Below, piece after piece: positions 6,388 through 43,566 of a DNA stretch of 44,093 bases. Each line of letters begins with the position of its first letter. The stretch's first letter is position 1. Position numbers and translations under genes: made by a program. The DNA is taken from positions 1-44,093 of IMG/VR virus record IMGVR_UViG_3300025759_000178; one strand, given 5' to 3'. This DNA comes from a virus. The notes under the pieces were generated by a model, which saw only the letters and a list, made by a program, of their open reading frames with translations, was not told the DNA's origin and did not search any database.

Positions 6388-7659
6388 TTATACGATATTT
6401 ACTTTTTCAACTGTTTCGTCAAATAAGTTATTAGATGATTTAACTACTTCACCAGCGTTTTCAACACCTTCATCAGAATCACCTTGCTTAACAGCTGATT
6501 CTTGTTTGACGTAAGGTAATACGCTTTGGTTATGATAACCATTATTAAAAGACCAACCTAATAAATCTCTTTGAAAATCAATTAATGGTGAGTTTTTCTG
6601 AGTGTAGTTTACTTCAGCACCCATGTATGAACCCCATTGTTCTCCACCATTCTCTTGGTAATCCTTTACTAAATCTACATTAGGGAAATACTTTCTGTAT
6701 TCTGAAAATATAGACACAAGTTTATTTTCTAAAGGTGACCAAGAATCAGGATTTTCATAATCTAAACCATTTAAAACACTTACAGACATTTGTTGAGCTT
6801 GAGGCCATAAAGACTGCATACTACTTTTTTGATTTAATATATTAGTATGATCGTAATTAGATATAACTTCTTCTATTTTTTGATTATCTTCTATAGTATA
6901 CATTACATCTTCTTTATCACTTTTTACAGGTTGTAATGCTAAATCAGCAGTTATTTGTTCTACTAATGGAACATCTCCTACTGAATCCATACTATTATAT
7001 ACTAATTCTTTCGGATCACCTAATAAAGGTATTAATTGATCTGAGTTAATATTTGGATCTAATTGTTGTTGTATAAGTCTTTCTACATATATAGGTTCAC
7101 TATTCTCTTTGTATATTAAAAGCTCATCATTCTCGTCTAATTCTAAGTTAAAATTAGCATCTTGATTAACATTGAAGTCGCTTATGTAATCTAACCATTG
7201 TTTGTTTTCAGCCATTAAACCTACATTTATAGAACCTGGTGATCCTAACGGTTTCACCAAGGCTTCAGACAAAGCACTATTAGCGTCCTTAAATATGGAT
7301 AAAGCACCTACTATTTTATCAGGCATGTTTAAAAGCTTTTTTTGTCTAGCTGGATCATTATCTACAACAGCTTGATAATAAGCATCTTTCATTCTAGTCG
7401 CTACAAAATTAGCGTTTTTACTGTTAGTATTTACAGGAGGCTTTGAAATATTACTTAAAGATCCTAAGTTACCACCGTTGTAACTTTGTAATTTTAAGTA
7501 ATTAATAGTATCACTAGCATGTTTAAAGTCGTTTTTTAAACCCTTTTCCGCAACACCTGATTGTATTTCTACAGCTTTATTAAAATCCTGTACACTATCA
7601 GTATCACGCTTGTTACCGTGTTTGTCACTAGTTGTAGCTTGGTTAGAATAATCTTTCAT
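6388..7659 (-). CDS. Putative virion-associated protein, 423 aa
   Basis: Function not recognised. The protein is acidic and mostly helical, with a polar N-terminus (MKDYSNQATTSDKHGNK) and no signal peptide or membrane segment. It has a glycine/serine-rich stretch near residues 60-75 and an aromatic C-terminal half with motifs such as WGSYMG and LLGWSFNNGY. It lies between the coiled-coil ejection-type protein and the giant protein, one base before the latter's start, so it is probably co-translated with them and part of the internal or ejected protein set. The position resembles that of T7 gp15 but I see no sequence basis for naming it so. Confidence 0.75.
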   Translation of the reverse strand: MKDYSNQATTSDKHGNKRDTDSVQDFNKAVEIQSGVAEKGLKNDFKHASDTINYLKLQSYNGGNLGSLSNISKPPVNTNSKNANFVATRMKDAYYQAVVDNDPARQKKLLNMPDKIVGALSIFKDANSALSEALVKPLGSPGSINVGLMAENKQWLDYISDFNVNQDANFNLELDENDELLIYKENSEPIYVERLIQQQLDPNINSDQLIPLLGDPKELVYNSMDSVGDVPLVEQITADLALQPVKSDKEDVMYTIEDNQKIEEVISNYDHTNILNQKSSMQSLWPQAQQMSVSVLNGLDYENPDSWSPLENKLVSIFSEYRKYFPNVDLVKDYQENGGEQWGSYMGAEVNYTQKNSPLIDFQRDLLGWSFNNGYHNQSVLPYVKQESAVKQGDSDEGVENAGEVVKSSNNLFDETVEKVNIV

Positions 7660-16696: not shown

Positions 16697-16710
16697 TTTA
16701 GTCTTTTTAT

Positions 16711-16740
16711 AAAAAAAAGGCGGCGCTTTGCCGCCCTTTT
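16711..16740 (-). terminator. Intrinsic terminator between head and tail genes
   Basis: In minus-strand sense: AAAAG, stem GGCGGC, loop AAAGC, stem GCCGCC, then eight T. It is the most GC-rich hairpin in an AT-rich block and is followed by the U-tract expected of a Rho-independent terminator. It lies 22 bases after the stop of the 250-aa gene. On the plus strand the tail is only CTTTT, so the minus strand is the functional direction. Incomplete termination here would lower tail gene expression relative to capsid, as T-phi does after gene 10 in T7. Confidence 0.85.
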
Positions 16741-16762
16741 ACTATTATTACAGGTTAAGAAA

Positions 16763-17515
16763 TTATTTTAACTTTTTTTCTATAGATTTATAAACTTCTA
16801 CGCCATCATCAGTTTTTAACCACGCTGCAAAAGCAGAGTATGGGTTTTCTTCAAACGGAACAGTCATTAATTTTTTACCATTACTAGCCCAAGCGAAAGT
16901 TCTTTGATCTGCAGATAATTTTATTATCATTGCTTCAGTAGCTTTGATAGCAAAATTTCTAAGTTCAACATTATCATCATTTGATAACTCTAAAAACAAA
17001 GCTGGGTTTCTTTTAGCAAATATAAGTAAATCTCTTTTTATCTCCTTAGAACTCATCTTAGACACTCTAGAGCCTTGTTCAACTCTTAATATAGCTTCAC
17101 AATGTTCTATATCTAACTCTCTAGCTAAAGCAATAGCTTCAAATTCTAGTTCTATGATATCTATATCATCTTCAGCGTTTTGAACTGTATCTAACTCAGT
17201 GTACTTCTTATTTAGTTCTGGGTGATATAAAGATAATAACTTTTGTAAGTTTTGTTTTTCTTTTGGTACATGTAACACACCATCTTTAAATACCACATGC
17301 TCTAATGTTGACATACCTTGCTGTTCATCTGTAAACACAGATCTTTGATTACTAGCATATCTAAGTTCTCTTTGATATCCTTTTTCAGCATCAAAATGCA
17401 TTAATGGAAAACGCCTAGTATGTTTAGAACGTAGTGTATACGTTAATGGTGATTTATCATTTAAAAGATAATAGTTTCTATCTTTAACTTCCCATGTTTT
17501 TTCTTTTGTTGACAT
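16763..17515 (-). CDS. Conserved phage protein, 250 aa, function unknown
   Basis: I recall this protein type from uncultured marine phages but know no function. It begins with KTWEVKDRNYYLLNDKSPLTYTLRSKHT, then KGYQRELRYASNQRSVF and VVFKDGVLHVPKEKQNLQKLLSLYHP, patterns that read like a compact beta N-terminal domain followed by helices (residues ~105-205). The C-terminus holds NGKKLMTVPFEENPYSAFAAWLKTDDG. It has no signal peptide or membrane segment. It is the last gene before the terminator in the capsid group, so a head completion or virion-associated role is plausible but not shown. Confidence 0.75.
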   Translation of the reverse strand: MSTKEKTWEVKDRNYYLLNDKSPLTYTLRSKHTRRFPLMHFDAEKGYQRELRYASNQRSVFTDEQQGMSTLEHVVFKDGVLHVPKEKQNLQKLLSLYHPELNKKYTELDTVQNAEDDIDIIELEFEAIALARELDIEHCEAILRVEQGSRVSKMSSKEIKRDLLIFAKRNPALFLELSNDDNVELRNFAIKATEAMIIKLSADQRTFAWASNGKKLMTVPFEENPYSAFAAWLKTDDGVEVYKSIEKKLK

Positions 17516-41062: not shown

Positions 41063-41299
41063 ATGAAAACTAATAACTTAACTACTAAAAGATTTGTAAT
41101 CAGAAAGTCACTAATAGGTACTAATACAGTAATCACTTTCACTAACAAAAAAGATATTACATTCACTTATGATCATGATGAAATCTACTCAACATTTCAA
41201 GAAAAGTTTGAATCAATGAAGTGTTTTCAAGAATACAAATCTTATACTAACTCTAATACTGTTCCAGCTTTCGCTAGAAACTTAGCAGAGATATCATAA
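41063..41299 (+). CDS. Right-arm orphan protein with DEIYSTF motif, 78 aa
   Basis: Function unknown. A beta-rich N-terminus (RFVIRKSLIGTNTVITFTNKKDITFTYDHDE) leads to DEIYSTF (39-45) and a helical end. The same FTY...DE[IV]YSTF pattern occurs in the 90-aa protein at 43074, so the two look like paralogues. It is led by an A-rich AAACTATG context, and a strong hairpin begins eight bases after its stop. Confidence 0.7.
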   Translation: MKTNNLTTKRFVIRKSLIGTNTVITFTNKKDITFTYDHDEIYSTFQEKFESMKCFQEYKSYTNSNTVPAFARNLAEIS

Positions 41300-41307
41300 G
41301 TAACATG

Positions 41308-41350
41308 TGACAGTAGCCTGTTACTCTTATATATTAACAAGCTATTGTCA
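41308..41350 (+). other. 43-nt hairpin element, copy 2 (strong 16-bp stem)
   Basis: The arm TGACAGTAGCCTGTTA pairs with TAACAAGCTATTGTCA (one C/A mismatch and one G-U), loop CTCTTATATAT. It follows the 78-aa stop by eight bases. No U-tract follows, so a Rho-independent terminator is unlikely; an RNase III-type processing site or structured RNA fits better. It is related to the element at 40639-40681. Confidence 0.7.
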
Positions 41351-41577: not shown

Positions 41578-41668
41578 TAATAAACAAAACATGTAGTTGA
41601 TAGTCATACTTTAGCATGTATAAATAAAACGAACACTTGACTCAGCACAAAACTTTAAAATTATAACT

Positions 41669-41883: not shown

Positions 41884-42081
41884 ATGTATAATCCTAACTC
41901 ACCAAGTAATTGGTCATGGTCTAAAGCATTCTCAGAAATGGAAAAGACTATAAACAGATCTGAACTCGAACAGCAAATAATAAATCACTCACATAACTAT
42001 GATGGTGGTGTAAAGAAGTTCACTGAACTAACTGAAGCTCAAAAAGATGATCACTACGAAATATTAACTCAAATACTATGA
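41884..42081 (+). CDS. Small right-arm protein, 65 aa
   Basis: Function unknown. Hydrophilic with Trp-rich start (NSPSNWSWSKAFSEMEKTINRSELEQQII) and HSHNYDGG. Its stop overlaps the next ATG as ATGA. Start context is AAATAACTATG. Confidence 0.6.
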   Translation: MYNPNSPSNWSWSKAFSEMEKTINRSELEQQIINHSHNYDGGVKKFTELTEAQKDDHYEILTQIL

Positions 42082-42170
42082 AAATAACTAACAAACAATT
42101 TAATACAATAGCAGTAATGGTAGCAACTATGCTAATAATAGAACTAATAAAACTTGCTACATTTATATAA
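42078..42170 (+). CDS. Single-span membrane peptide, 30 aa
   Basis: ATG at 42078 overlaps the previous stop (ATGA). MKITNKQF is followed by a membrane helix (NTIAVMVATMLIIELIKLATF, given here only in outline). The stop TAA (42168-42170) is directly adjacent to the hammerhead ribozyme. Third micro-gene of the same design in the right arm. Confidence 0.6.
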   Translation: MKITNKQFNTIAVMVATMLIIELIKLATFI

Positions 42171-42220
42171 GTTTAACTGATGAGATCTAAGTGATCGAAA
42201 CTACGCGAGTAGTCTTAAAC
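42171..42220 (+). ncRNA. Hammerhead ribozyme (type I topology)
   Basis: Stem I GTTTAA (42171-42176) pairs perfectly with TTAAAC (42215-42220). Core CTGATGA (42177-42183) supplies C3 to A9, with G8 at 42182. Stem II is GATC/GATC (42184-42187, 42193-42196) with loop TAAGT and the usual G10.1-C11.1 pair. Then comes GAAA (42197-42200), with G12 at 42197. Stem III is CTAC/GTAG closed by the GNRA loop GCGA, with A15.1 (42200) paired to U16.1 (42213). C17 (42214) gives a GUC cleavage site before U42215. All invariant positions are present. A possible outer stem TTTAT (42162-42166)/ATAAA (42223-42227) would leave an internal loop near stem I for a contact with loop II. Cleavage would give the next gene a 24-nt leader. 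Confidence 0.92.
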
Positions 42221-42238
42221 AAATAAAATTAAATAACT

Positions 42239-42580
42239 ATGAAAAAAACTATTATGACAATTGGTGCATTCGCTATGATGACATTCGGCCAAGCACAAAA
42301 CTGGAAACTAAATGAAGCTGTTAATACATTAGCAGATATGGAAGAGTGGATGAATGAAGACATAGCTAACGGTAGAATTGAAGCAGAAATTGGTGGAGAA
42401 TATATTGAGAATATAATGAACGTGCTAAGACTAGTTATGACAAGTGAAGATGAAGACGCTTGTGTTAGAAATGCTGATATTGACGAAACTTATTATGAGC
42501 GTAAAAAGAAAAGACAATTTACACTAATCAAATTTGTAATTGAGCCACAAGAAACTATAGCTTTAACTGACTCTTTGTAA
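42239..42580 (+). CDS. Exported protein, 113 aa, signal peptide
   Basis: A clear signal peptide MKKTIMTIGAFAMMTFGQA, cut before QNWK, predicts secretion to the periplasm. The mature part contains LADMEEWMNEDIANGRIEAEI, with the pattern L-x2-[MV]-E-x-W-[MI]-x2-D-I-x2-G-[RK]-[IV], shared with the lipoprotein at 43330. The C-terminus holds KKKRQFTLIKF and IEPQETIAL. No own promoter element precedes it; its mRNA would begin at the ribozyme cut. Superinfection exclusion or envelope modification is possible. Confidence 0.75.
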   Translation: MKKTIMTIGAFAMMTFGQAQNWKLNEAVNTLADMEEWMNEDIANGRIEAEIGGEYIENIMNVLRLVMTSEDEDACVRNADIDETYYERKKKRQFTLIKFVIEPQETIALTDSL

Positions 42581-43073: not shown

Positions 43074-43346
43074 ATGATAAATACAAAATACATATCAACT
43101 AAATATCTCGACGCTATCATTCTCGATGACGACTATATCAAACTAGTGATTAACAGAGTACAAAAATCTCCGTACGGATACACTAAACGAGATTTATTAT
43201 CTTCACCATTCGGTGTAAAAACTAAAGCATTCACTTACAATTTTGTAAGTAATAAGGTAGACGAGGTGTATTCTACCTTTCCAAACGAAGAAATACACGA
43301 GTTAATTAATAAAGTTAAACTATATAAAAATGAGAAAAGCAATTAG
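43074..43346 (+). CDS. Right-arm orphan protein with DEVYSTF motif, 90 aa
   Basis: Function unknown. Contains KYLDAIILDDDYIKLVINRV, a Pro/Gly-rich segment, and FTYNFVSNKVDEVYSTF (53-69), related to the 78-aa protein at 41063. The C-terminus is helical and charged (EEIHELINKVKLYKNEK). It overlaps the next gene by 17 bases. The ATG at 43074 is the first after promoter copy 5. Confidence 0.7.
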   Translation: MINTKYISTKYLDAIILDDDYIKLVINRVQKSPYGYTKRDLLSSPFGVKTKAFTYNFVSNKVDEVYSTFPNEEIHELINKVKLYKNEKSN

Positions 43347-43566
43347 TATTATCTTAATATCTTGTAGTAGTTGTGCTCAAAGTGGTTACATATACTATAA
43401 ACATAGTGTTAAAAAATGTATACATAACTTAGAACAAGTTGAAAGTTGGATACACCATGATATAGAACAAGGTAAAGTAGATCCGAGTATCGCTGAAGAT
43501 TATATGATAGCTATAACTCATACTAAAATAAGTTTAATGGAAAAGTATAAAAAGTATGATAAGTAA
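43330..43566 (+). CDS. Predicted lipoprotein, 78 aa
   Basis: MRKAISIILISCSSC is a short lipoprotein signal with lipobox LISC and C12 as the lipidated residue. The mature part has LEQVESWIHHDIEQGKVDPSI, paralogous to a segment of the exported 113-aa protein. It should be attached to the cell envelope. Function unknown; envelope defence against other phages is possible. Overlaps its neighbours on both sides. Confidence 0.7.
   Translation: MRKAISIILISCSSCAQSGYIYYKHSVKKCIHNLEQVESWIHHDIEQGKVDPSIAEDYMIAITHTKISLMEKYKKYDK

Follow-up and report, generated by a model that had tools for sequence, protein, structure and literature searches.

A type I hammerhead ribozyme, recognised from its core and structure, at a gene border of a phage, and its probable role in splitting mRNA

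Identification and genomic setting of the hammerhead

The 44,093-nt window (the whole stretch of viral DNA that was analysed) carries at positions 42171–42220 an RNA that, judged by its core and structure and not by the Rfam cut-off, is a genuine type I hammerhead ribozyme. Located at a border of presumably early genes, it probably cuts itself 3' of C42214, splitting a polycistronic mRNA. The features concerned are:

41063–41299 (+): first gene of a rightward run of small genes; members of its family lie directly 5' of the ribozyme in three related records (G003, G011 and G012)
41589–41642 (+): element Y, a predicted H-type pseudoknot of 54 nt (descriptor, covariation; 40 of 81 loci)
42078–42170 (+): hydrophobic ORF of 30 aa whose ATG overlaps the TGA of the previous ORF (ATGA) and whose TAA adjoins the ribozyme
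42170 (+): unpaired A 5' of stem I, the final base of the TAA stop, opposite A42221, which A42222 follows
42171–42220 (+): type I hammerhead ribozyme, loops II and III closed, stem I open (sequence, Rfam Hammerhead_1, descriptor and simulations, compensatory changes)
42171–42176 (+): stem I 5' strand GUUUAA, with its partner UUAAAC at 42215–42220 (sequence)
42177–42183 (+): catalytic core CUGAUGA (sequence)
42184–42196 (+): stem II GAUC/GAUC with pentaloop UAAGU (sequence)
42197–42214 (+): GAAA, stem III (A15.1-U16.1 plus CUAC/GUAG, tetraloop GCGA) and C17 (sequence)
42221–42238 (+): 18-nt leader up to the next ATG (sequence)
42239–42580 (+): P0001, 113 aa, with a signal-peptide-like N-terminus (by eye), directly 3' of the ribozyme

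The 50-nt RNA (GUUUAA-CUGAUGA-GAUC-UAAGU-GAUC-GAAA-CUAC-GCGA-GUAG-U-C-UUAAAC) has stems I, II and III of 6, 4 and 5 bp and the cleavage triplet GUC. A hammerhead core requires C3-U-G-A-N-G-A9, G12-A-A-A15.1, U16.1 and H17, all of which are present here, together with three stems bearing the standard closing pairs at the core and the type I topology, with hairpin loops on stems II and III and an open stem I. Part of this core list is also given in the parts of Perreault 2011 (PMC3088659) covered here. An earlier note, made from the sequence alone, had described a complete hammerhead with these stem lengths and A15.1-U16.1 within stem III; sequence, descriptor and relatives bear this out, and its coordinates are correct (G12 = 42197, C17 = 42214, a cut before 42215, TAA at 42168–42170 and ATG at 42239). 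The cut, which we take to lie 3' of C42214, between 42214 and 42215, was placed by hammerhead numbering.

Against the Rfam model Hammerhead_1 (RF00163), the window RNA scored 27.9 bits over the full model length (E 3.6e-5 for the 201 bp searched), short of the gathering score of 34, and a scan of all 44,093 nt at gathering scores reached zero families. A routine Rfam scan thus misses this hammerhead, and the covariance search that the earlier note had proposed as a check came out divided, negative at the curated cut-off and positive by E-value. In an E-value scan of the whole window, the sole hammerhead-family match listed was a weaker one to RAGATH-1 (E 4.4). A base-by-base descriptor returned one strict match in the whole window, 42171–42220, and a loose match at 6433–6484 (−), with stems of 8, 2 and 3 bp within an ORF, that looks like chance. 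The strict geometry (at least 6, 4 and 5 bp) occurred in 0 of 400 simulated first-order Markov windows, in agreement with the earlier statement that the element is far from a chance match, and the loose geometry at 0.03 per window. The folding energy was unremarkable relative to shuffles (z −0.6 and −0.7); the minimum free energy structure of a 79-nt stretch was the hammerhead fold, and that of the bare 50 nt left stem I unpaired.

The hammerhead starts directly 3' of the TAA at 42168–42170 and ends 18 nt 5' of the ATG at 42239. The P0001 protein encoded there had no match in PHROG, a single distant match when used as a search query, and a weak homolog in G003 (32% over 59 aa). Its alignment with the product of 43330–43566 (24% over 33 aa, E 2e-6 in a single comparison) points to a possible paralogy between them. 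The rightward genes from 41063 onward are small, and eight of them compared with PHROGs gave zero family matches; they are presumably early genes. Encoded leftward are terminase, portal and further structural proteins (PHROG matches), as well as a phage GroEL (35872–37422, −; phrog_5725). On the same strand, at 16706–16780 (−), a hairpin GGGCGGC..GCCGCC followed by a U run, with a weak L20 leader score, lies between structural genes and resembles an intrinsic terminator.

The window terminase is 63.5% identical to that of MW202828.1 (Podoviridae sp. ctfjg026, Manatee Spring), about 46% identical to those of Flavobacterium elemoviruses and 32–38% identical to those of the listed Cellulophaga and Tenacibaculum phages. 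The phage belongs near ctfjg026, the Flavobacterium elemoviruses and Cellulophaga phi18:3, and the carrier of the hammerhead is probably a phage of Flavobacteriia. A crAss-like identity, suggested by the PHROG terminase, portal and structural matches, was rejected, the nearest named terminases being those of ctfjg026, elemovirus, Baltivirus, Callevirus and Gundelvirus. A DNA search of phage records found none sharing the right end of the window; the ribozyme DNA matched over 33 nt in five Rhizobium phage records (E 0.02), and 25 nt of the leader matched one Bacillus phage record (E 0.7).

Relatives, compensatory changes and neighbouring RNA elements

A scan of viral contigs for a fixed core plus the GAUC stem II matched 10 contigs if GUCUU was part of the pattern and 43 with GUC only. 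A terminase search in 14 of these records found 8 with a related terminase, six at 65–82% and two at 34%. Applied to the six closer records and five named genomes, the descriptor found 12 hammerheads: one each in G003 and G012, two each in G006, G007, G008 and G011, and one each in Flavobacterium phage elemoE 6-9C and Cellulophaga phage phi18:3; it found zero in MW202828.1, phi38:1 and Gundel_1. Between the end of the 41063–41299 family gene and the hammerhead lie 15 nt in G003 and 2 nt in G012, and in G011 the gene runs 4 nt into the hammerhead; in the window, three more small ORFs separate this gene from the hammerhead.

These 12 sequences and the window hammerhead were aligned, and 12 pairs (stems I, II and the base of stem III) were counted. 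Across the 13 hammerheads 96.8% of the counted cells pair, a figure that is partly selected for, since the descriptor, from which several of them came, demands at least 3 pairs per stem and most other relatives were found by hammerhead patterns or by this descriptor. The compensatory changes proposed earlier as a check are present and the stems are kept: both sides change in 6 of the 12 pairs (24 cells versus 7.8 in shuffles), phi18:3 being included despite a stem II mis-registered because of its shorter loop. Stem I is 100% paired, with both-sided changes in 4 of its 6 pairs, and sliding the partner strand lowers overall pairing to 22–40%. Weaker measures were the number of pairs with both-sided changes, equalled in 38 of 500 shuffles, and further pair types (29 of 500). 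On the strength of simulations and conservation, a chance match as the origin of 42171–42220 was rejected.

Loci were also sampled by neighbouring protein families rather than by the ribozyme. In sample (a), a search with the 41063–41299 family, the best 80 of 309 relatives were taken as loci; the DNA beyond the gene extended for at least 300 nt in 70 of them, for at least 1 kb in 57 and for under 1 kb in 23. Hammerheads occurred in 9 of these 80 loci (9 copies, all nine on the strand of the gene), one of which was the already known G003. The relatives' stem II variants were GAUC/GAUC, GAGU/ACUC or GACU/AGUC, and their stem I variants GUUUAA/UUAAAC, GAUUCA/UGAAUC or GUAAUA/UAUUAC. The ribozyme lies directly 3' of the family gene in L356, L366, L395 and L398, and directly 5' of an ORF with a similar signal-peptide-like start (by eye) in L337 and L386. 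Neighbouring genes vary among the loci; the ribozyme stays at gene borders while the surrounding genes turn over. The other 71 loci had no descriptor match, and two of them hold a degenerate copy (L347:4447–4537 and L369:4009–4099) in which position 17 is A and 10.1/11.1 is a U.U mismatch, and which shares a stem III stretch with the L326 hammerhead.

Sample (b) comprised 59 loci of a second protein family, picked because it lies near hammerheads in G006, G007 and elemoE. Twenty-nine loci, 4 of them in already scanned records (G006, G007, G008 and elemoE), carried 56 hammerheads, all 56 in sense and at most 4 per 6 kb, one of which (L416, 5/4/3 bp) may be chance; the other 30 carried none. After removal of near-duplicates, a stop lay upstream, −13 to +5 nt from the start of stem I, in 23 of 27 cases, and an ATG ORF began 5–60 nt downstream in 23 of 27. 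Both samples together gave 65 of 65 copies on the strand of the query gene. Presence is patchy in both samples, and none was found in MW202828.1, phi38:1 and Gundel_1; thus, the hammerhead is dispensable at any single border.

Other RNA elements recur behind genes of the 41063–41299 family. In the best 80 of 309 loci plus the window, sense copies numbered 42 for element Y, 33 for X, 24 for a tRNA-like element, 12 for Z and 10 for the hammerhead, with 0 antisense copies of each. Element Y has the fixed loops UAGUUGAU, UUUAG and AUAAAU..GAA, and stands in tandem in L337 and L371. From 27 aligned sequences of the 35 distinct ones, 23 distinct rows were counted, in which 89.5% of cells pair and both sides change in 8 of 12 pairs (62 cells versus 20 in shuffles). 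Against the Y fold, two helix 2 pairs fail in 13 of the 23 rows, and neither the changed-pair count (equalled in 246 of 500 shuffles) nor the pair types (462 of 500) are unusual.

The tRNA-like element, found at L332:3807–3850 (+) and 23 other loci, consists of a 7-bp acceptor-like stem, a GGUU linker and a 6-bp T-arm with the loop UUCGAUU or UUCGACU, with no anticodon or D stem; in 11 sequences 100% of cells pair, and both sides change in 6 of 13 pairs. By descriptor it lies 3' of Y or Z in 22 of 24 cases, and in L326 a hammerhead begins 2 nt after Y in its place. It is a possible RNase P site; ARAGORN, run on a set of 24 loci, found no tRNA. Element X (window 41308–41348, +; 30 of 81 loci) is a conserved hairpin with the sequence UGACA.UAGCC.GUUACU...UGUCA that lies 3' of the first small gene and, in a number of loci, also 5' of it; its loop GUUACU may pair with an upstream AGUAAC. 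Element Z (L336:3761 and 11 other loci), a pseudoknot-like fold of CCAGU..ACUGG with ACUCGUU/AACGAGU, often replaces Y. The descriptors place X and Y, and no tRNA-like element, in the window. Rfam returned no family for these modules on the stretches searched, and an antisense miRNA match in the window, weak at E 0.08, was taken as chance.

Phage hammerheads at large and the A flanks of stem I

Two wider pattern scans of viral contigs each gave at least 120 matches; phage elements of the hammerhead kind are therefore common, not rare, and the earlier note's view of them as uncommon is not supported. Non-redundant sets were compiled from the GAUC pattern (38 sequences) and, among the matches listed, from a GUCUUA pattern that fixes part of stem I (133) and from a pattern with no stem I constraint, excluding hammerheads already found (91). 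Matches inside ORFs of at least 100 aa and near-duplicates were left out of all three. For the 92 loci newly added for the third set, all three stems were present in 87 of 105 core matches among those listed. In the same order, and for the latter two sets among the matches listed, an upstream stop lay within −13 to +5 nt of stem I in 24/37, 102/129 and 60/85 cases, an ATG ORF began 5–60 nt downstream in 23/36, 87/126 and 59/84, and the orientation was sense to the neighbourhood in 36/38, 124/133 and 77/91, antisense in 0, 4 and 6, and unclear in the rest.

In 17 loci picked by hand as hammerhead-rich or from the window's lineage, the descriptor found 56 hammerheads outside long ORFs, compared with 1 Rfam match at gathering level, so the Rfam cut-off misses most such hammerheads in these loci. 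This low pass rate in hand-picked loci suggests that Rfam-based annotation overlooks many hammerheads. One of the Rhizobium phage matches from the ribozyme DNA search, that of the named isolate RHph_Y38 (MN988483.1; L461:403–450), is a full, unannotated hammerhead of 6/4/5 bp located 6 nt after a tRNA-Pro gene. Two contigs are hammerhead-dense, each with its copies in a row of genes: L003, with 9 descriptor matches in 14 kb, and L301 (an Aliivibrio MAG), with 6 pattern matches in 5.8 kb. Bacterial contigs gave 37 stretches with such elements, many from Legionella and some from Bacteroidota, Aquimarina and Mucilaginibacter among them.

Stem I is exactly 6 bp long in 27/38 (GAUC), 122/133 (GUCUUA) and 58/91 (no stem I constraint) hammerheads, the latter two among the matches listed, and with the same limit an A.A mismatch closes this 6-bp stem in 23/27, 113/122 and 39/58, compared with 28%, 29% and 22% expected from composition given non-pairing. 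In sample (b), the mismatch was present in 25 of 25 non-redundant hammerheads with a six-bp stem. Loop II has 5 nt in 20/27, 89/122 and 35/58, with U at both ends in 20/20, 87/89 and 33/35 of these (again among the matches listed for the latter two sets). An internal loop in stem I was ruled out at the sizes tested, no pairing resuming beyond A.A: with 12 loop sizes and 122 plus 58 sequences among the matches listed, real counts were never above the shuffled maximum.

In high-speed hammerheads, an internal or terminal loop of stem I contacts loop II, and many hammerheads show no recognised tertiary contact, according to the parts of Perreault 2011 (PMC3088659) covered. In the window RNA no stem I loop was seen that could make such a contact. 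The conserved A flanks and the U...U pentaloop suggest a substitute for it, in which the A's on either side of the open stem of 6 bp may dock with loop II; these flanks offer a concrete candidate for the contact in hammerheads with no recognised one. The literature searched, which included few subscription papers, showed no open-ended stem I of 6 bp closed by a conserved A·A mismatch; figure S5 of Perreault 2011 may already hold a related motif.

Proposed role and comparison with known systems

In the proposed mechanism, the transcribed 50-nt RNA would fold and cleave itself co-transcriptionally 3' of C42214, separating the polycistronic early transcript at the border between 42078–42170 and 42239–42580. 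The upstream product would end in the stem II and III hairpins, followed by one overhanging base and a 2',3'-cyclic phosphate, and 3' exonucleases would start poorly on such an end, which combines the stem III hairpin with the cyclic phosphate. The downstream product would carry a 5'-OH and a 24-nt leader (42215–42238) before the ATG at 42239. The reasoning behind these end groups and the exonuclease resistance is hammerhead chemistry combined with what is generally known of RNA decay. Cleavage and end groups at 42214/42215 are what we infer from that chemistry, and a purpose in gene-by-gene mRNA processing and end protection is likewise something we only infer. The earlier note had suggested that the mRNA of an exported protein owes its 5' end to the ribozyme. 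As regards the cut in the mRNA this is plausible; the tie to that protein is not sustained by the relatives, in which different genes lie downstream.

A real hammerhead might instead cleave and yet be a passive or selfish passenger at the borders of gene cassettes, without any selected function in processing mRNA. Its patchy presence (9 of the best 80 of 309 loci and 29 of 59), the variation of neighbouring genes between relatives and the two degenerate copies in L347 and L369 would suit a passenger; the compensatory changes keep the stems, however, and the stop-flush placement and sense orientation point to selection on the transcript. We regard this reading as unlikely. Degenerate copies in relatives, a score under the Rfam gathering cut-off and an unremarkable folding energy would likewise be expected of a chance or decayed look-alike with no activity, but this is very improbable given the absence of the strict geometry from all 400 simulated windows and the covariation and shared position among relatives.

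Compatible with the splitting of mRNA is a gated ribozyme, in which terminating ribosomes would mask stem I so that translation of the upstream ORF controls cutting. The window TAA directly precedes stem I, and the 5' end of stem I lies at or overlaps a stop in most of the phage hammerheads examined (among the matches listed), but compact phage genomes alone would give the same stop spacing, and we assign gating a small probability. Self-cleavage that splits the early mRNA is the reading we prefer. The role becomes testable in this lineage by comparison of early mRNAs, for which elemoE 6-9C and phi18:3, with one hammerhead each, and phi38:1 and Gundel_1, with none found, are comparable isolates.

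A broader reading joins these observations and is offered tentatively, as possible but doubtful. The early gene borders of the lineage would be punctuated by interchangeable RNA-cutting modules, namely the self-cutting hammerhead and a minimal tRNA mimic of 44 nt (a 7-bp acceptor-like stem with GGUU linker and T-arm) that host RNase P would cut; either module could stand behind a conserved H-type pseudoknot protecting the upstream 3' end. The hammerheads of the lineage would in addition make up a structural subclass that docks with a U-N-N-N-U loop II through unpaired A's beside an open 6-bp stem I and not through the usual stem I loop. Such a module grammar, with a hammerhead in the place of a minimal tRNA-like element behind an undescribed pseudoknot, was not met in the literature searched, and no paper was found there linking hammerheads with crAssphage or crAss-like phages (few subscription papers were included in either case).

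With RF00163 the window RNA shares all core nucleotides, the three stems, the open stem I, closed loops II and III and GUC; it differs in its score (27.9 bits versus 34), in a stem I that stops at 6 bp and in the conserved unpaired A flanks. With RAGATH-1 (RF03152) it shares the hammerhead core, and the scores are weak (25.3 bits in the window and 27.8 in elemoE); membership was rejected on score, the gathering score being 56.3, and the 5' hairpin of the window is only a weak A-U stretch (by eye).

A 2017 review (PMC6155905), in the parts covered, links the hammerheads of prokaryotes with phages and describes their role as an open question. Gene-border phage hammerheads and a role in cutting mRNA were already described in 2011. 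In the parts covered, Perreault 2011 (PMC3088659) reports hammerheads flanking single genes or blocks of genes in prophages, proposes that long phage transcripts are processed into gene-length mRNAs, and finds in vitro cleavage of three tandem arrays of the prophage type, with one set cleaving in E. coli as well. The term 'stop codon' is absent from its main text, and the pairing of a pseudoknot with a tRNA-like element does not appear in those parts. The window hammerhead shares with these prophage hammerheads the gene-border position and the proposed cutting of transcripts, and differs in being carried by a phage of another lineage, whose relatives infect Flavobacteriia.
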